A stretch of 36,752 nt of DNA, taken from the IMG/VR virus record IMGVR_UViG_3300018481_000044, positions 1-36,752 of that record; one strand, given 5' to 3'. The notes beneath the pieces were generated by a model, which was not told the DNA's origin, ran no database searches, and saw nothing but the letters and a program-made list of their open reading frames with translations. A program made the position numbers and the translations under genes. Origin of the DNA: a virus. Below are positions 754-34,709 of this stretch, piece after piece (position 1 is the stretch's first letter; each line of letters begins with the position of its first letter).

Positions 754-816
754 TCGGCGGTTCAGGAGGCCCGGCCATCGCTACGTTGAAGCCCAATGAT
801 CCTGTGCCGGGCCTCC
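743..816 (+). ncRNA. solitary B-type dual-spacer hairpin (with compact hairpin before it)
   Basis: The main hairpin spans 765-816. Its 11-bp stem (765-775 with 806-816; GGAGGCCCGGC/GCCGGGCCTCC) closes a 30-base loop of the form C, ATCGCTACGT, TGAAGCCC, AATGATCCTG, T. This is exactly the loop grammar of the large array at 14082-16702, but the outer stem bases differ and still pair. A compact hairpin CCGCCGA-GTGA-TCGGCGG at 743-760 lies just upstream and includes the stop codon of the previous gene. The unit sits in the leader of the gene at 845, sense to it. It could be a stand-alone guide, an RNP-binding regulatory site, or an ancestor of array units. Confidence 0.85.
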
Positions 817-6493: not shown

Positions 6494-6729
6494 CTCGCCT
6501 GCGCATCGGCCGCCTCCCGCATCACTTGAAGTTTGTGTTGCTCGCGCTCCAAATGCTCTTCGGCATAACGCATCAGCTTCAACAGCGCATTTGCTCTCGC
6601 CTCTGCCTTGGCAAGCTCGCCCTGCGCCTCACCGGCTTCGCGCCGCAGCACGGTGTGAACATCATGCAGACTCATCACGATATCGGCCTGCGCCCGGAGC
6701 GGATCAAACGCGGCCATTATTCGACTCAT
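6490..6729 (-). CDS. small coiled-coil protein
   Basis: 79 residues from the ATG at 6729, chosen because it overlaps the helicase stop as ATGA; an ATG two codons earlier is also possible. The sequence is an almost continuous Ala/Glu/Arg-rich helix (AGEAQGELAKAEARANALLK). It is probably a coiled-coil accessory protein coupled to the helicase. No family recognised. Confidence 0.6.
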   Translation of the reverse strand: MSRIMAAFDPLRAQADIVMSLHDVHTVLRREAGEAQGELAKAEARANALLKLMRYAEEHLEREQHKLQVMREAADAQAR

Positions 6730-8285
6730 TGCCAAGCACGATCACGCTCCTCACGCTTGCGTTTTGAATTCGCGATCATGCGCGACGTGATGTAGTTGAG
6801 CGTTTCAGGACGACACCACTTCGCCATCGGCGCATGCTTGATCGTTGGGTGGTTCGGCCAGACGCCGGTCTTGTCCTTGTACACCATCGAGGCCCAGCCC
6901 GGCTTATAACGCTGGCGATAGCCGTAGTACTTTAACTCAGCAAAGAATTCCGCCTTCTCTTCCATCGTGTCAACGCGCAGCGGATCCGGCGGCGGCTTCG
7001 GCTTGCCCTTTAGCTCGCGCGTCATCTCCTGTAGCTCGCCAGCATCCGGCTTGATCTTGCTCACCACCACCGCGACGAAGCCGCACGCTGGACACTTCGC
7101 TGTCGCTGGCGGCTTGAGGTACGCGCACTGCGGACACTCCTTCGGAAGCCTGATGCCTTCGGTGCGGTTGTCGTGCGTCGGCGTCTTGGCGTGATGCAGC
7201 CCGGTGTATGATTCATCGATGCTGGTGACGAAACCGAGCCGCAAATGGTTGTCGCTGTGATCGAGGATCAAACAGTCCTGCTTGCCCGGTGCCGTGCGCA
7301 AGCCGCGCCCCACGATCTGCACGAACAGCATATCGCTCTTCGTGGGTCGGCACATCGAGATGCATCGCACATCCCAGTCGATGCCGACCGTGAGCGTGCC
7401 GACGTTGCACACGACCTTGTAGGTGCCGTCATGGAAACCAGCTTTGATCGAGCGGCGGCCCGGAATGCGCCTGCCGGTGTCCTTCTCGATGCGATCAGCA
7501 TCAGGAGTGTACGCGTCTTGGTATGCACAGCGGACTCCCGCCGCCTCGAACTTATCCGCTAGCGCCTTGGCGTGCGCGCGATCCACCGCATAGCAGAGCG
7601 TCGGCCGGTTCTCTCCAAGCTTGATCCACGTGGCAACTGCGTCGCCAACGAGCTTGCCTTGCTGCATCGCCTCTGAAAGCTCGCCTTCATGATAATCGCC
7701 AGCCACTGTCCGCACGTTCGAAAGGTCTGGATGAGACGGGGCAAAAACCCGGAATGGCGCGAGGAAACCAGCATCGATCATCTGCCCCGTTGTGCTCGCT
7801 TTATAAAAATGCGTGTACCAATTTCCTAAATGCTTCGTCCATGGTGTCGCGGAGAGTCCGATGATCGGCACCTCCGCGAACTCCGGCATCTTGTCGCGAT
7901 GCATCAGCTTCTCATAGAACTTGAACCACCTGTGGCATTCATCGATCAGGATGATGTCGGGGTCCGGCATCTTCCGCTTCATCAGCGTCTGCACCGACGC
8001 AACTTGGATCGGTAGATTCCAATTGGTTAAATGATGCGACGCTTGGATAACCCCCACTTCAGTGATGCCGTGCGACGCAAACATCTCGACGGTCTGATCG
8101 ACCAGTGAGATGGTCGGCACGGTGAATAGAACCTTCTTCCCCTTCTCTCGCGCGCTCTCGACCAATGCGCATGTGAGAACTGTTTTGCCCCACCCCGTGG
8201 GCGCTTGCATGCAGATTCGGAATTGCTTTTCCGCCACCGCCCGACGCAACGCATCGAGCGCTTCGCCCTGATCCTCTCTCAACAT
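6726..8285 (-). CDS. SF2 DEAD/DEAH-type helicase
   Basis: 519 residues. Superfamily 2 motifs in order are Walker A APTGWGKT (28-35), DECH (115-118), SAT (145-147) and motif VI QIVGRGLRT (323-331). A four-Cys zinc ribbon (C384, C387, C398, C401) follows the second RecA lobe. This is the architecture of the Res-subunit/UvsW-like phage helicases that use ATP to unwind or remodel DNA during replication and recombination. No nuclease domain is attached. ATG at 8285 follows AAAGGAGCAAACGA. Its leader carries a solitary dual-spacer hairpin (8313-8358) in the sense orientation. Confidence 0.9.
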   Translation of the reverse strand: MLREDQGEALDALRRAVAEKQFRICMQAPTGWGKTVLTCALVESAREKGKKVLFTVPTISLVDQTVEMFASHGITEVGVIQASHHLTNWNLPIQVASVQTLMKRKMPDPDIILIDECHRWFKFYEKLMHRDKMPEFAEVPIIGLSATPWTKHLGNWYTHFYKASTTGQMIDAGFLAPFRVFAPSHPDLSNVRTVAGDYHEGELSEAMQQGKLVGDAVATWIKLGENRPTLCYAVDRAHAKALADKFEAAGVRCAYQDAYTPDADRIEKDTGRRIPGRRSIKAGFHDGTYKVVCNVGTLTVGIDWDVRCISMCRPTKSDMLFVQIVGRGLRTAPGKQDCLILDHSDNHLRLGFVTSIDESYTGLHHAKTPTHDNRTEGIRLPKECPQCAYLKPPATAKCPACGFVAVVVSKIKPDAGELQEMTRELKGKPKPPPDPLRVDTMEEKAEFFAELKYYGYRQRYKPGWASMVYKDKTGVWPNHPTIKHAPMAKWCRPETLNYITSRMIANSKRKREERDRAWQ

Positions 8286-8312
8286 TCGTTTGCTCCTTTG
8301 TGAAAAAGCGAA

Positions 8313-8358
8313 GGCCCGGCAACTCTCATCTGGGATTCACTACACCGGTGGCCGGGCC
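8313..8358 (-). ncRNA. solitary B-type dual-spacer hairpin, minus strand
   Basis: Read on the minus strand: stem GGCCCGGC/GCCGGGCC (8 bp) closing a loop C, ACCGGTGTAG, TGAATCCC, AGATGAGAGT, T. The loop length is 30 and the grammar is the same as in the array at 14082-16702. It lies between the stop of the 55-residue gene and the ribosome site of the helicase, so it would be in the helicase leader. The core octamer differs by one base (T for R) from the array consensus. Confidence 0.85.
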
Positions 8359-8371
8359 TCCTATCGTCGCA

Positions 8372-8539
8372 TCACTGCGGTGAATTCTTTGTCGTCAACG
8401 CATCCAGCGCGCTTTGCAAAAGCTTGCGCGCGTAATGCAGTTTGTCCTCCAGCATGATCGCGCGAGCATGCCAATATTCCCAAGCATCTCCTTCCTCTTC
8501 CTCGCGTGTGATCGGTCTCCCCGCGTTCTCGTCGGTCAT
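8372..8539 (-). CDS. 55-residue phage protein
   Basis: 55 residues from ATG at 8539, with AAAAGGAGCAAACACT upstream and an ATGA overlap with the previous gene's stop. It is acidic at the N-terminus (TREEEEGDAWEYWHAR) and helical after that (KLHYARKLLQSALDAL). No domain recognised. It ends just before the solitary hairpin in the helicase leader. Short length and helical content suggest a small adaptor or regulator, but this is a guess. Confidence 0.65.
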   Translation of the reverse strand: MTDENAGRPITREEEEGDAWEYWHARAIMLEDKLHYARKLLQSALDALTTKNSPQ

Positions 8540-11595: not shown

Positions 11596-12320
11596 AGCTC
11601 GTGGCTCCTTTGTGTGATGTTCTCCGGTTTGTGCTCAGCGCAGAACCACGCGCCGAGTTGCTGCTTTAGCACGCTCACGCCGACGCCGTGTGCGCCCCAC
11701 TTGCCGCAATGACAATAGTGAAGAAGCCGCCCCTGCGTGTCATAGCCGACAAAGCCCGCAAGCAGGAGGTCGATACCGATCAGGTCGCTCTTCTCGATGA
11801 ACCATGTGCCCTTCGAGAGTTTGCCGTCGTCGCTGATTCCATCGGCGATCTTCTTGCGCTCGAAAAAATCAACCTTGCTAATGTAGCCCTCGATCCAGCA
11901 TTGCGACCAGTCGCCGTCGTCAATCGACACGCCAACCAAATAATCAAATCGCTTGCGCTCATAAAGATCGTTCAACTGGCGAGACCATATCAGCCAGCGC
12001 TTGTGCTGCGGTGTCGTCTTCACATCGAGAGCAAAGCCCGCTGCGAGGGTTACATCGGTTCCGCCGTCCGCCACACTGATCCTGCGGCTGACAGCAGTTG
12101 ACAGATCAAGCGCGAAATGGAGCGCGACCGCATATTCACCGGCCTTGCCCTGCCCTTGGCGGATCGGATCAAGCTCAGCGCCCCATTCGCCGGATCGCGA
12201 GCGCGACGCCGATGCCGCGCCCTCTGGTGTCGCGTACCACTTCGCCATTGCCTCGCCGTACTGGCGCGACACGCGAACGATGTTGTCGTTCAGCACCACG
12301 AGCTTGCGATGTTCGTTCAT
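11592..12320 (-). CDS. PD-(D/E)XK nuclease-like protein with zinc site
   Basis: 242 residues. E62 in GKAGEYAVALHF, D89 in GGTDVT and D99-V-K101 in FALDVKTT form the E ... D ... DxK pattern of PD-(D/E)XK nucleases. The C-terminus carries 'CHCGKWG' and 'WFCAEHK', a CxC plus CxxH set compatible with a zinc-binding site. Expected to cleave or process DNA; the substrate is unknown. It sits directly downstream of the methyltransferase gene with an ATGA overlap. This raises the possibility of a modification-linked activity, although phages often carry such pairs in replication modules. Confidence 0.7.
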   Translation of the reverse strand: MNEHRKLVVLNDNIVRVSRQYGEAMAKWYATPEGAASASRSRSGEWGAELDPIRQGQGKAGEYAVALHFALDLSTAVSRRISVADGGTDVTLAAGFALDVKTTPQHKRWLIWSRQLNDLYERKRFDYLVGVSIDDGDWSQCWIEGYISKVDFFERKKIADGISDDGKLSKGTWFIEKSDLIGIDLLLAGFVGYDTQGRLLHYCHCGKWGAHGVGVSVLKQQLGAWFCAEHKPENITQRSHEL

Positions 12321-13351
12321 TCGGCGGCCTCAGCCGGAGCCTCATTGCCCCAACGCTCCCACCCCTTGCGCGCCTTGCGCGCGTTAAGCTCAATCTTCGG
12401 CAGATCGGAATAGTATTCCTCAATCATCTCATAAACCGCGTCGGGCTTTTCGCTGTGCCTGCGGCGTGGCGCTTGGATGACCGAAGGCCACTGCGTGCCC
12501 TCCAGCGGAGCCGAAATGTTTCCGCGCGTGCCTACCAGCAAGTGCTCGTGCTGATTCCGATTCCAATAGCCGGTGCCAGCCTTGTCTTTGACCCACACGA
12601 AGTTGCTGACGTAATCGAACCCCCACGCGGTCATGACTTCGAGCGCGTGCGGCAGCATCGGGACGGTTGCCCAGAGGAACAGCACACAGTCATCCGCGCA
12701 GATCGACGGCACATCGCGCGCCTTGATGTCTTCAAGCGTGCTGGTCGGGTACTGGTTGTCCGCAGAGGTACCGTCGAGCCCTTTCTCCGACCACGCTTCC
12801 CACCTCCATTCCGGATCGGCAAGAATCACGGCGAAGGTGCGCTGCGGCAATGCCTCGATCTTGTCGGATAGCTCCCTCATGCGGCTATCCCGCTTCGCCT
12901 TCTTCACCTTGTGGCGTTCAGCGCGCGCTTCCTTGATCACCTCGATATAGTTTTCGGCAGCCGCTACCACGATGCGGATGCGCTGCGCGATCATGGCCTC
13001 TTGCTTGGCTCGCGGTAGCCTAGCCAGTGCCTGCCAGCGGCTCGACTGAATCTTGCTGACGCCAAGATCGGAGAGCTTGGGAAGCTCCCGTGGTAACTTC
13101 GTGTTACCACGGGACAGCGTATCCTTGCTCTTGGCGCGCTCGCCGCCCTTCGCCATCGTGATCAGCAACTCGCCCGCGCGCACCTCCGCATGCAGACGAA
13201 TATCGGTAGCCATGCCAATCAGTTCGCCGTCCCTCGCTTGCTTGGCGTAGGTCTGCATGGCAATCGCTTTGTCGCGGATCGTCTTCACCTCATCGACCCG
13301 CGTTGCTTGCGCAAGCGCTTTGCGTACCGCGTCGTATTTAACGAGCTTCAT
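12317..13351 (-). CDS. MT-A70-like adenine methyltransferase
   Basis: 344 residues from the ATG at 13351, chosen for AAGGAGG at ideal distance; an in-frame start at 13375 has none. The C-terminal half (about 165-335) fits the MT-A70 family: 'FAVILADPEWRWE' places a DPEW motif at 179-182 where the usual sequence is DPPW. It is followed by 'LFLWATVPMLPHALEVMTAWGF', 'GYWNRNQHEHLLVGTRG' and 'RRHSEKPDAVYEMIE'. Family members transfer methyl groups from AdoMet to the N6 of adenine in DNA or RNA. The N-terminal 160 residues are helical and resemble a ParB-like or HTH-type recognition region, not certain. The Pro-to-Glu change in the catalytic motif is unusual and might alter activity. Confidence 0.8.
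   Translation of the reverse strand: MKLVKYDAVRKALAQATRVDEVKTIRDKAIAMQTYAKQARDGELIGMATDIRLHAEVRAGELLITMAKGGERAKSKDTLSRGNTKLPRELPKLSDLGVSKIQSSRWQALARLPRAKQEAMIAQRIRIVVAAAENYIEVIKEARAERHKVKKAKRDSRMRELSDKIEALPQRTFAVILADPEWRWEAWSEKGLDGTSADNQYPTSTLEDIKARDVPSICADDCVLFLWATVPMLPHALEVMTAWGFDYVSNFVWVKDKAGTGYWNRNQHEHLLVGTRGNISAPLEGTQWPSVIQAPRRRHSEKPDAVYEMIEEYYSDLPKIELNARKARKGWERWGNEAPAEAAE
13086..13114. repeat. perfect 12-bp inverted repeat inside the methyltransferase gene
   Basis: Arms TCCCGTGGTAAC (13086-13097) and GTTACCACGGGA (13103-13114) with a 5-base loop containing TTCG. It falls in codons of the methyltransferase N-terminal region (around SRGNTKLPREL). In RNA it would make a very stable UUCG-type hairpin; in DNA it would be a symmetric protein-binding site. 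Confidence 0.7.
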
Positions 13352-13369
13352 GCGTCCTCCTTGGCCCCC

Positions 13370-13415
13370 TTGCATGAGCGCATAAGCTTATCTATACAAT
13401 GCACCTTTGCAAAGG
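13370..13415. promoter_or_regulatory. divergent promoter region with palindromic operator candidate
   Basis: Rightward: TTGCAT (13370-13375), 17-base spacer, TATACA (13393-13398). Leftward candidate: TTGCCT (complement of 13413-13418), 16-base spacer, TATAGA (complement of 13391-13396). The 12-base perfect palindrome CCTTTGCAAAGG (13404-13415) lies downstream of the rightward -10 and inside the leftward spacer, so one bound dimer could control both. These would drive the methyltransferase operon and the guide-array locus. Confidence 0.5.
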
Positions 13416-13441
13416 CAAATGCCCAAAGGAGCAAACCCCCT

Positions 13442-14071
13442 ATGAGTCTCGAAACCCTTGCTAAGACCGCACTGGTCAAGAGCGGCGGTGACATCGAAAA
13501 AGCACTTCCCCAATTCGTCCGCGCGGTGCGTACGGCGAATCTGATTGACGATCTGGCGCGTAAGTATCTCAGCCAGATCGCCAGCGGGTCCGGCCAGAGT
13601 GAGAACGAAACCCGGAGCGCGGCTGCCGGACCCGCATCTCCAAAGCACAAGCTCGGCTCGATCAAGGTGCCTCAATACGACGTCAAGCCACACCGCCGCC
13701 GGACCCACGCCGAGAAGCAGGCCGCGCTCGCCGCTGCGGCTGCCTCTATCGAGGCTGTGTTCGAGCTTGAGATCAACGGACGCGCCATCGGCAATATCCG
13801 CTTCGGCGAACTGGCCGCGCTGCGCCACGATCTCGTGGACGATGCATCGAGCAAATTGATGTTAGGCATCGATGCAGCCCGCGCCGCCGTGCTCGCCGAA
13901 TTGATTCAGAACCACGCGGTCGTGCCAGATCATTCCGCGCGCGTGCGTGACGTGATCGACGCCCCAACCCTCAGGGGACTTGTCGCGGAGGCCGAAGAGG
14001 AAGCGCCGCGCCGGATCGCCGAAGCAATGCGCCGCGCCTCCGGTGCCATCGAGAACAGGAGCGTAGCATGA
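13442..14071 (+). CDS. unknown protein co-transcribed with the guide array and Nop-like gene
   Basis: 209 residues from the ATG at 13442 behind AAAGGAGCAAACCCCCT. Three parts are visible: an N-terminal helical segment (residues 1-45), a basic Ser/Pro/His-rich linker with 'KPHRRRTHAEKQ' (about 46-85), and a C-terminal helical domain with 'INGRAIGNIRFGELAALRHD' and a long Glu/Ala/Arg helix at the end. No catalytic motif is visible. Its stop overlaps the ATGA at 14068, where the array begins, so it is the first gene of that transcript. It could be a partner of the RNP, for example an RNA-binding or targeting subunit, or an unrelated early gene. Confidence 0.7.
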   Translation: MSLETLAKTALVKSGGDIEKALPQFVRAVRTANLIDDLARKYLSQIASGSGQSENETRSAAAGPASPKHKLGSIKVPQYDVKPHRRRTHAEKQAALAAAAASIEAVFELEINGRAIGNIRFGELAALRHDLVDDASSKLMLGIDAARAAVLAELIQNHAVVPDHSARVRDVIDAPTLRGLVAEAEEEAPRRIAEAMRRASGAIENRSVA

Positions 14072-14081
14072 AAAACGAAAA

Positions 14082-14492
14082 CGGTCGCCGAGTGGCTGAT
14101 GAAGACCCGAGAAGTGGTGCGACCGCGCCCCCGGCCAGTGGTGATGTGAAGCCCGTGACACTCTTGCCGGGGGCACCTAAAAAGAAAAACGGTCGCCAAC
14201 CGAGTGCTGACACCCTTGGCAGCCATGCGACCGCGAGCGCGGCCACCGCAGAGTCGAAGCCCTTACCGCCAGTGCCGCGCTCACCTAAAAACGGTCGCCT
14301 TGCAACTGATGTAACCCAGCGCAAGATTGCGACCGCGCCCCCGGCCAACGCACGCGTGAAGCCCAAAGAAGACTCGCCGGGGGCATCTTCTCGAACCGCT
14401 CGCCAAGGTGGCCTTGACGCCCGTCTGACATGTGCGAGCGCGCCCCCCGGCCAGAACGCACCTGAAGCCCAAATAAGCTCTGCCGTGGGGGC
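14082..14492 (+). repeat. TIGR-like dual-spacer guide array, upstream part (8 hairpins)
   Basis: Four A-B hairpin pairs. A units: 14082-14125, 14190-14233, 14292-14335, 14397-14440 (7-bp stem CGGTCGC/GCGACCG; the fourth is CGCTCGC/GCGAGCG). B units: 14127-14174, 14235-14282, 14337-14384, 14442-14492 (stem variants GCCCCCGGC/GCCGGGGGC and GAGCGCGGC/GCCGCGCTC; the last has a bulged T). A and B are one base apart; B-to-A linkers are 9-12 bases, once 15. Loops follow C-N10-octamer-N10-T, total 30 bases, octamer TGAARCCC with variants. The first and eleventh loop bases are often A, so the true spacers may be 9 bases. The strand is given by the octamer and by the flanking genes. Confidence 0.93.
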
Positions 14493-15378
14493 GACTTCTT
14501 CTATTGTCGAGACCATCCGCGCACATCACCGCGCGCGGCGATTCGCCATGGGCATTCAGCAGGTTCTTGATAACAAGCTTGGCGCATTCGTCCGGATTAA
14601 CGCGACCGACTGGCATCCCACCGACGATGAATCCGAGCGCACGAAGGCGAACAAGGAAGTTGCCGTAATCATCAAGGCGGCCCGCGAAGGTCAAGGCGAT
14701 CCGCTCATCATCGGAATGGTCGCCGTGACCGACAAGGCGCGCGAGCCTGCTGACGCTGAGCGCGCGAAGCACGAGAAAGCGATGGAGACTCTCGCCAAGC
14801 AGTTGCCGGTGGCTGCATGGGTCGAAAACATTCCCGGCTTCGGCATGCTTGGACTCGCAACGATCATCGCCGAGACCGGTGACCTCGCGATGTACTCGAA
14901 CGTGGCCAAGGTCTGGAAGAGACTCGGCTACGCACCGTACAAGGACAAAGCGGGCTCGACGTGGAAAAGGCCGAAGTGGCGCAACGCGGATGCGCTCACC
15001 GCTGAGGAGTGGACCGAGAATCCATTCTCAGGTCGGCGCTACGCTTTGATCCACACCATCGGAGTATGGCTGAAAAACAAACAGTGGGTTGGAGCCGCGA
15101 AGACGGAGGACGGCGTCGGTATTCCGAATGGATATTACGGCACGGTCTACGCCGCGCGGCGTGCGCACACATCGATCACGCACCCCGAATGGACAAAAGC
15201 CCATGCTCATATGGATGGGCTCAGGGTGATGATGAAGCAGGTCTTGAAGGACCTATATTTAGAATGGAATCAAATCGGTCGCCAACACTGGCCTGAAACC
15301 CAACGAGCCCGTGCGACCGCTGGTGACCCGGCCCGTGTGTTGGTGCAACCCAAAGAACATTTGCCGGGCTCACTCTAA
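14485..15378 (+). CDS. Nop-like / IS110-transposase C-terminal-domain protein (TasA-like)
   Basis: 297 residues if started at the GTG at 14485; other starts are ATG 14548 and, with the best ribosome site (AGGAG, ATGA overlap), ATG 14068, which would translate eight hairpins as a low-complexity leader. The conserved part begins at 'VETIRAHHRARRF'. Residues 112-152 (WVENIPGFGMLGLATIIAE, then GDLAMYSNVAKVWKRLGY) match the helix-hairpin-helix type Transposase_20 domain of IS110-family proteins, which is related to the Nop domain of box C/D RNPs. A helical region follows, ending in HAHMDGLRVMMKQVLKDLYLEW near residue 261. The N-terminal DEDD/RuvC nuclease of IS110 transposases is absent and no HNH is seen. 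The last 36 codons overlap hairpins A5/B5. Placement inside the array argues that it binds these RNAs, as the nuclease-less TasA form of TIGR-Tas would. A relic IS110 transposase is the alternative. Confidence 0.8.
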   Translation: MGATSSIVETIRAHHRARRFAMGIQQVLDNKLGAFVRINATDWHPTDDESERTKANKEVAVIIKAAREGQGDPLIIGMVAVTDKAREPADAERAKHEKAMETLAKQLPVAAWVENIPGFGMLGLATIIAETGDLAMYSNVAKVWKRLGYAPYKDKAGSTWKRPKWRNADALTAEEWTENPFSGRRYALIHTIGVWLKNKQWVGAAKTEDGVGIPNGYYGTVYAARRAHTSITHPEWTKAHAHMDGLRVMMKQVLKDLYLEWNQIGRQHWPETQRARATAGDPARVLVQPKEHLPGSL

Positions 15379-16694
15379 ATGACGAACGGTCGCCAGTGTC
15401 GCCTTGAAACCCTATGCGCTTGCGCGACCGCGAGCCCGGCCAATTCACCGATGAAATCCGGAGGAGCCATGCCGGGCTCACCTTTTTTTGACACGGTCGC
15501 CAGAGAACCGTTGAAACCCTTGATGCTTATGCGACCGTTGAGCCCGGCCAAGCGAAGAATGATACCCACGCAGGTATTGCCGGGCTCACCTATTTCCGAA
15601 ACGCTCGCCAATTCACCCATGAAGCCCAGAAGGTACTTCGCGAGCGCGAGCCCGGCCCGGTACGCGTTGAAGCCCATTCGATCCATGCCGGGCTCACTCT
15701 TCCAAAACGGTCGCCAACGCGGTGGTGAAACCCGCATCCGGCTAGCGACCGCGCCCCCGGCCATCGCACTTCTGAAACCCAAAGCATGCGTGCCGGGGGC
15801 ATCTATTCAAAACGGTCGCCAAAGCTCCACTGCAAACCGGCGTTCCGGTGCGACCGCGAGCCCGGCCATTAAAGTATTGAAACCCACGACACTTGCGCCG
15901 GGCTCACCTTTCTACGCTCGCCACAAGGCTTGTGAAGCCCACCGACGATCTGCGAGCGCGAGCCCGGCCACCATTGCAATGAAACCCATTGGGTGCTTGC
16001 CGGGTTCACCTATCCAAACGGTCGCCAGCGTCGCCTTGGAACCCAATGCGCTTCTGCGACCGCGAGCCATGGCCAGAGTCGGGCTGATGCCCAAAGATGG
16101 TTTGCCATGGCTCAACTTCTTTACGGTCGCCGGTGGACCATTGAAATCCAGCACCCCGACGCGACCGCGAACGCTCGCCGAAGCGCGGCTGAAATCCGCT
16201 ATACTGATGCGAGCGCGAGCCCGGCCATGCCCATCCTGAAGCCCAGACGTATCGTGCCGGGCTCACTCTTCTTCCAAAACGCTCGCCAGTTCACCCATAA
16301 AAACCTGAAGGTACCAGCGAGCGCGCCCCCGGCCACCAGTGCAATGAAGCCCAACGAAGGCGTGCCGGGGGCATCTTTTCGATACGGTCGCCTCATCAGC
16401 TTTGAAGCCCACTCAAGCGGTGCGACCGCTGAGCCCGGCCATCAGCACCATGAAACCCGCTGGTCGCGTGCCGGGCTCACCTATTCCGAAACGCTCGCCG
16501 ATTCGCGAATGAAGCCCAGAAGCCCGATGCGAGCGCGAGCCCCGGCCCAATGTTGCTTGAAACCCAGTCGGCCCGTGCCGGGGCTCACCTATTCGATACG
16601 GTCGCCACGGTTTTCTTGAAGTCCAAAACAGTGATGCGACCGCCGAGCCCCGGCCACCCGGCAAGTGAAGCCCAACGTGATCGTGCCGGGGCTC
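15276..16694 (+). repeat. TIGR-like dual-spacer guide array, downstream part (27 hairpins)
   Basis: A units start at 15276, 15387, 15494, 15602, 15708, 15813, 15915, 16019, 16124, 16172, 16280, 16385, 16492 and 16599. B units start at 15323, 15432, 15540, 15648, 15753, 15858, 15960, 16064, 16217, 16325, 16431, 16537 and 16645. Most A units are 44 bases and most B units 48. One A unit (16124) lacks a B partner and is followed 4 bases later by another A. Stems covary between CGGTCGC/GCGACCG and CGCTCGC/GCGAGCG (A), and between GAGCCCGGC, GCCCCCGGC, GAGCCATGGC and GAGCCCCGGC with matching 3' arms (B). The octamer TGAAACCC/TGAAGCCC dominates; spacers are nearly all different. Linkers from B to A often read ACCT-TTCnnAA. 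This is a tandem guide-RNA locus, not a CRISPR array. Confidence 0.95.
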
Positions 16695-17961: not shown

Positions 17962-17988
17962 GCAACCCTACGAATCGAACAAGGGATC

Positions 17989-18081
17989 GGTCGCCTGCGC
18001 CTTGTTGAAGCCCTTATCACCAGTGCGGCCAACGCCCCCGGCCACTTGATGCGTGAAACCCAGAGCGCGGGTGCCGGGGGC
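17989..18081 (+). ncRNA. solitary A+B dual-spacer hairpin pair in the exonuclease leader
   Basis: The A unit (17989-18030) has stem GGTCGC/GCGGCC including a G-T wobble and loop C, TGCGCCTTGT, TGAAGCCC, TTATCACCAG, T. The B unit (18034-18081) has stem GCCCCCGGC/GCCGGGGGC and loop C, ACTTGATGCG, TGAAACCC, AGAGCGCGGG, T. The architecture is the same as one repeat of the main array, 1.3 kb away across three leftward genes. It lies between the promoter and the AAAGGAGCA ribosome site, sense to the gene at 18106. Confidence 0.9.
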
Positions 18082-28774: not shown

Positions 28775-28859
28775 TTAATGATCCATGATGAAGTGTGAGG
28801 GCGGAGCGGCGGCCAATGACAATCTGAACCCCAGAGATGCGGTGCCTCCGATCTCGCCC

Positions 28860-34630: not shown

Positions 34631-34709
34631 GTGAGCGAGTGCTCTCGCTCACTCTGGTGCGCCCGGCCATTACAGTCATGAAACCCTTGTAGGGATTGCC
34701 GGGCGCACC
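34631..34709 (+). ncRNA. solitary B-type dual-spacer hairpin, antisense to the tail operon
   Basis: Stem GGTGCGCCCGGC/GCCGGGCGCACC (12 bp, 34656-34667 with 34698-34709) encloses C, ATTACAGTCA, TGAAACCC, TTGTAGGGAT, T. The octamer is on the plus strand, whereas flanking tail genes are on the minus strand. A compact hairpin GTGAGCGAG-TGCT-CTCGCTCAC (34631-34652) sits 3 bases upstream, as in the unit at 743-816. After the B arm comes TTTTCG. It lies in the spacer between sheath and tube genes. Confidence 0.85.

Follow-up and report, generated by a model that had tools for sequence, protein, structure and literature searches.

Lone stem-loop TIGR units as putative single-guide genes in operon leaders of a metagenomic phage

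The 36,752-nucleotide (nt) stretch of viral DNA in IMG/VR record IMGVR_UViG_3300018481_000044 (positions 1 to 36,752, the whole of which is hereafter called the window) contains, on its minus strand before a helicase gene, a hairpin at positions 8310-8361 that is probably an isolated unit of a stem-loop TIGR-Tas system and, as such, a gene for a single guide. Judged from sequence, this unit and other lone units of the same kind are likely to be stand-alone tigRNA genes in operon leaders, which would guide a TasA protein to DNA. A preliminary description of this DNA had noted the hairpin, with a helicase gene 28 bases downstream in sense, and had not identified the system as TIGR-Tas; the hairpin is real, and the helicase ATG lies at 8285, 28 nt beyond position 8313. 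The window was compared with relatives that are metagenomic phage fragments (labelled with L and a number), among them L005, a 13-kb fragment with ~85% coding identity to the window. The features at the helicase site and at the tas locus are as follows.

6726..8285, minus strand: DEAD/RadD-like DNA helicase gene, downstream of the unit.
8285..8309, minus strand: linker and ribosome-binding site AAAGGAGCA before the helicase gene.
8310..8361, minus strand: probable lone tigRNA stem-loop unit (unit 8310), with stem GGAGGCCCGGC/GCCGGGCCTTC, spacer A CCGGTGTAG and spacer B GATGAGAGT.
8368..8379, minus strand: small hairpin CGCA-GTGA-TGCG with a GNRA tetraloop, directly 5' of unit 8310, read against L005.
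14068..15378, plus strand: gene for a TasA-type Nop-domain protein, with the Nop core from ~14500 and an N-terminal frame that traverses array 1.
14080..14497, plus strand: TIGR stem-loop array 1, 8 units with alternating A (CGGTCGC) and B (CCCCGGC) stems.
15276..16694, plus strand: TIGR stem-loop array 2, ~26 units, with T8 after the last.

Unit 8310 consists of a stem arm GGAGGCCCGGC, a loop CACCGGTGTAG TGAATCCC AGATGAGAGTT and a stem arm GCCGGGCCTTC, forming 11 pairs, one of them G-U, around a loop of exactly 30 nt (11+8+11), and it folds with a z of -2.8. The 8-bp stem GGCCCGGC/GCCGGGCC given in the preliminary description is the inner part of this 11-pair stem; the 30-base loop given there stands, and its "10-base flanks" each combine a 9-nt spacer with bases of the boxes. 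From one stem arm to the other, the order is CCA, 9-nt spacer A, TG, AATC, CCA, 9-nt spacer B and TG, which reads CCA-N9-TG-N4-CCA-N9-TG and fits exactly the box C/D grammar of a stem-loop TIGR unit. Among 351 distinct units of related phages, spacer lengths are 9+9 in 340, the loop starts with CA in 285 and ends with TG in 329. In the stem, 7/7 pairs form (100% paired), five of them with changes on both sides, and covariation is seen at every varying pair; double-sided stem changes numbered 67, versus 26 in shuffled sequence. As outlined in the main text of Faure et al. 2025 (PMC12045711), a TIGR unit holds two spacers, each between box C (CCA) and box D (UG), which in TIGR systems in general pair with opposite DNA strands; in the stem-loop type palindromic stems stand in place of edge repeats, and TIGR arrays, stem-loop units with TasA included, are processed to guides. 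The window likewise has a Nop-domain Tas gene by an array, two box-flanked spacers of 8-12 nt and palindromic stems. What unit 8310 does not share is tandem repetition, as it stands ~5.7 kb from array 1 in a genome with tandem arrays elsewhere.

A covariance model built from 31 array units only detected unit 8310 with 35.9 bits (E 2e-6 over 99 kb), which bears out the earlier view that it is of the same kind as the array units and stands alone, and a 33-unit model that includes lone units scored it at 42.0 bits in the window, where some 40 further unit copies are present (two arrays plus lone copies). When the 33-unit model was applied to 79 helicase-bearing phage loci (1.09 Mb), the best match reached 17.7 bits and no unit was found in any locus. 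The preliminary description had considered that the loop grammar and stem might arise at similar frequency in random sequence; this background maximum does not bear that out, and a chance origin of unit 8310 is excluded. Exact matches of the class B pattern in 257 Gb of bacterial genomes were scattered and single, with no arrays among 120 stretches, among the matches listed, and were taken as chance. Searches of the window with Rfam and for tRNA genes returned no match, and no sigma-70 promoters exceeding chance were found.

The tas gene is positioned between the two arrays. Its product matches Transposase_20 (the IS110 C-terminal domain), the NCBIfam model TIGR_Tas (E 2e-15; its 57 bits fall short of the curated cut-off, 100) and the TasR 9mty profile (E 4e-8). 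Comparison of its AlphaFold model (pLDDT 88.6) with known structures gave Z scores of 16.6 for TasH, 16.0 for TasR, 13 for IS110 (IS621) and 7 for Nop5; the Nop core of ~260 residues aligns with TasR and TasH beyond their nuclease domains, and the 144 residues upstream are array-encoded. No nuclease domain (RuvC/HNH) was seen in the modelled core, and the protein is therefore assigned to the TasA type. Identification as an IS110 transposase was rejected, because only the C-terminal part matches, without a DEDD/RuvC-like domain, and the score with the IS110 equivalog model, 38.7, is under its cut-off of 140. Tas homologues at ~30-61% identity adjoin such arrays in ~20 other phage contigs. In INPHARED no close phages were found by DNA, and only weak Tas relatives were found there.

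Besides the arrays, the window carries about six lone units. In addition to unit 8310, they are the following.

765..816, plus strand: lone unit with a GNRA hairpin before it and a ribosome-binding site and GTG start at 845 after it; absent in L005.
13588..13631, plus strand: lone unit, CGAAACCC variant, within the open reading frame 13190-14071.
18034..18081, plus strand: unit before a RecE-like exonuclease gene, with a degraded A unit before it (17988-18031).
28807..28850, plus strand: lower-scoring lone unit (27 bits), flanked by late genes of the minus strand.
34656..34709, plus strand: lone unit between minus-strand late genes, with a 9-bp hairpin before it.

The placement of lone units was scored on 22 of them, drawn from the window phage and the relatives L003, L005, L110 and L153, 21 having downstream sequence. 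A ribosome-binding site and start codon followed in sense 24-45 nt downstream in 17 of these 21, and on the antisense side none lay within 60 nt; a wider, partly redundant set of 55 gave 30 versus 8 (sense versus antisense). Directly upstream, a small GNRA-capped hairpin was present in 11 of 18 lone units, compared with 2.2% of random windows. The order is thus small hairpin, unit, linker and ribosome-binding site, and the module of GNRA-tetraloop hairpin, unit and linker (~75-90 nt) fills the gap from the stop codon to the next ribosome-binding site. The GNRA loop at both 8310 and 765 contains the stop codon that ends the preceding gene, which at 8310 is a short one (hairpin 8368-8379). In the arrays, an A-type unit takes the place held by the GNRA hairpin in the lone modules, and nearly all lone units are of class B. 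The preliminary description had placed such units before DNA-metabolism genes, which applies to the helicase, RecE-like and RecT-like genes and not to most of the downstream genes, whose function is unknown. Relative to the main text of PMC12045711, lone units in leader modules are new in this phage group; that main text makes no mention of dispersed single units, and its authors may have seen them. Separately, relative L108 has four scattered lone units (L108:3980, 5362, 9835 and 11185) and no array in 14 kb of contig sequence.

Lone units appear and disappear between relatives, in partial support of the earlier view that the unit can move or arise independently. L005 is without the helicase-site unit and the unit at 765, and its own lone unit at L005:1688 has no counterpart at that place in the window; each of these three presence/absence differences is a block of ~75-90 nt directly upstream of a ribosome-binding site. 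Gain in the window lineage appears to be the simpler reading, because no unit was found in the 79 more distant helicase-bearing loci; those distant phages may lack Tas altogether. ACAAAG lies on both sides of the helicase insertion, no such repeat lies at the other two sites, and target-site duplication is not claimed.

The spacers of lone units change in place. L110 and L153 have two lone sites in common, at the first of which ~40 upstream bases through the 5' stem are identical. Summed over both orthologous units, the frames are identical at 60/68 positions and the spacers at 9/36, which is the random level; fourfold sites of this phage pair are 53% identical, and the spacers are more diverged than these (P 5e-4). 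In the arrays, 1/13 guides is kept between L177 and L120 at a fourfold identity of 85%. L114 and L120 have a block of three consecutive units in common, and unit blocks are therefore also exchanged or inherited. In L114 itself, the guide CAAGGCTGG/CCGTCGCCT occurs twice (L114:4856 and L114:5925), in two sub-arrays ~1 kb apart, which is a recent unit duplication. It is possible, if short of probable, that the lone units are mobile single-guide cassettes, in which a module of ~75-90 nt is inserted between a stop codon and a ribosome-binding site and the spacers are then exchanged in place. We conjecture that recombination at short repeats such as the ribosome-binding site moves the modules, RecE/RecT-like genes being present.

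As predicted from these features, unit 8310 would be part of the early-operon transcript, a TasA dimer would bind it and a host RNase would cut it down to a tigRNA. By analogy with known TIGR guides, spacer A would pair with one strand of the target and spacer B with the other, and TasA, being without a nuclease, may bend or block the target DNA, the likeliest target being a competing phage or mobile element. Single guides in operon leaders would enlarge the repertoire, each guide being timed by its host operon. Targets were sought locally, with controls, in the geometry A plus the reverse complement of B, which was derived from the cleavage rule given in the main text of PMC12045711. Local matches with gap 0 and <=1 mismatch numbered 10, versus ~4 in controls, and this excess was rejected as proof, three of the matches lying on one repeated coding motif (ARIEALE). 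Exact 18-mers in IMG/VR were absent for unit 8310, and unit 765 had one unrelated, probably chance match.

Several points weigh against reading the lone units as guide genes. Neither the local nor the IMG/VR searches gave a convincing target for any lone unit, and no tas gene is visible in the L005 fragment. The comparison of lone-unit spacers comprises two orthologous sites in one phage pair, and a leader-regulatory role would likewise preserve the frame. Moreover, units 28807 and 34656 lie antisense between late genes and unit 13588 lies within an open reading frame, which shows that leader placement is not universal and restricts the earlier claim that such units sit before genes.

The leader position admits another explanation, which we regard as unlikely, namely that a lone unit is a cis-acting regulator, serving as a TasA-binding site or an RNase target in the mRNA leader with incidental spacers, and that the level of TasA controls the helicase, RecE, RecT and other early genes. 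Such a regulator would fit the sense position 24-45 nt before a start and right after the upstream stop (17/21), the conserved GNRA hairpin (11/18 versus 2.2%), and a GCUUUUU at the 8310 site that could pair with the ribosome-binding site AAGGAGC. However, the spacer length is fixed at 9+9, the spacers diverge faster than fourfold sites, and presence and absence in close relatives imply that the downstream genes can do without the unit; the antisense units, together with the fixed spacer length and the fast spacer change, speak against a leader switch as the sole role, and the unit within an open reading frame counts against the regulator reading as well.

If the lone units had been copied from the arrays by recombination and were degenerating without function, they would leave traces such as the degraded A unit beside 18034 (23.7 bits) and the lower-scoring unit 28807, but we consider such relics very improbable as an account of the lone units, most of which score high and show no flaw in stem or boxes. 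Moreover, the frames at orthologous sites are largely identical (60/68) despite a fourfold identity of 53%, and only lone units have the GNRA module. An ordinary palindrome, be it an intrinsic terminator, a REP-like element or a chance hairpin, would share the GC-rich stem in an intergenic gap, and is scarcely credible in view of the 30-nt loop, the missing U-run directly past the stem, the exact loop grammar, the covariation and the far lower background scores; the model search refutes it, and a terminator was rejected.

Among known systems, the TIGR-TasA stem-loop arrays of a Peromyscus leucopus gut contig, as described in the main text of Faure et al. 2025 (PMC12045711), share with the window a nuclease-free Nop-domain TasA, units whose two spacers of 8-12 nt are bounded by boxes C and D, palindromic stems and sub-arrays by tas. 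The window differs from that account in that units also occur singly, at kilobase distances from the array and on either strand, in operon leaders that carry a GNRA hairpin; it further has alternating stem classes A and B, a conserved linker TGAARCCC and part of an array within the tas frame. The dual-repeat TIGR-TasR and TasH systems (9mty; 9vzx, 9w03) have the same Nop fold (Z 16) and UG...CCA boxes at the spacer ends, but they possess a nuclease domain, short edge repeats rather than long stems, 36-nt guides and strictly tandem arrays. Box C/D small nucleolar RNAs with Nop5 resemble the lone units in that the guide RNAs are single and dispersed, each with two guides flanked by boxes C and D, and in the Nop fold (Z ~7), whereas they use a K-turn, L7Ae and RNA methylation and belong to eukaryotes and archaea. 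The IS110 bridge RNA is likewise a bipartite guide used with a related Nop-like domain (Z 13); unlike here, IS110 has a DEDD transposase domain, transposes and carries one two-loop RNA per element.

Other observations concern the arrays and their surroundings. Stem classes A (CGGTCGC or CGCTCGC) and B (CCCCGGC, GCCCGGC) form near-directly joined A-B pairs, each followed by a linker. Array 1 lies within the TasA reading frame, which begins at ATG 14068 with an AGGAG ribosome-binding site; from 14068 to 14500 all 12 TGA triplets are out of frame, the A units are spaced at 108/102/105 nt, and the guide precursor may also serve as the tas message. Units in the tas frame are also present in L148, L161, L094 and L186, and not in most others. 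The spacers of unit 15276-15319, taken as B plus the reverse complement of A, give ACGAGCCCGGGCCAGTGT, a sequence similar to the junction of A and B units in TIGR arrays, which matches a lone unit of L003 with 2 mismatches; this is possibly a guide against the TIGR units of other phages, and possibly chance. On the strand opposite to the TIGR-Tas locus, and a short way upstream of it, lies an MT-A70 DNA adenine methyltransferase gene (12317-13375).

The main text of PMC12045711 poses as open questions how guides in TIGR arrays are gained and changed and what role TasA plays. Lone units at fixed, alignable leader sites provide clean orthologous guide pairs, where gains, losses and replaced spacers can be followed at single-base resolution, which is less easily done in arrays. 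If the lone units are mobile cassettes, the guide set of these phages would be partly scattered through operons and renewed faster than neutral change, and guide turnover would proceed without Cas1/Cas2-like adaptation proteins.
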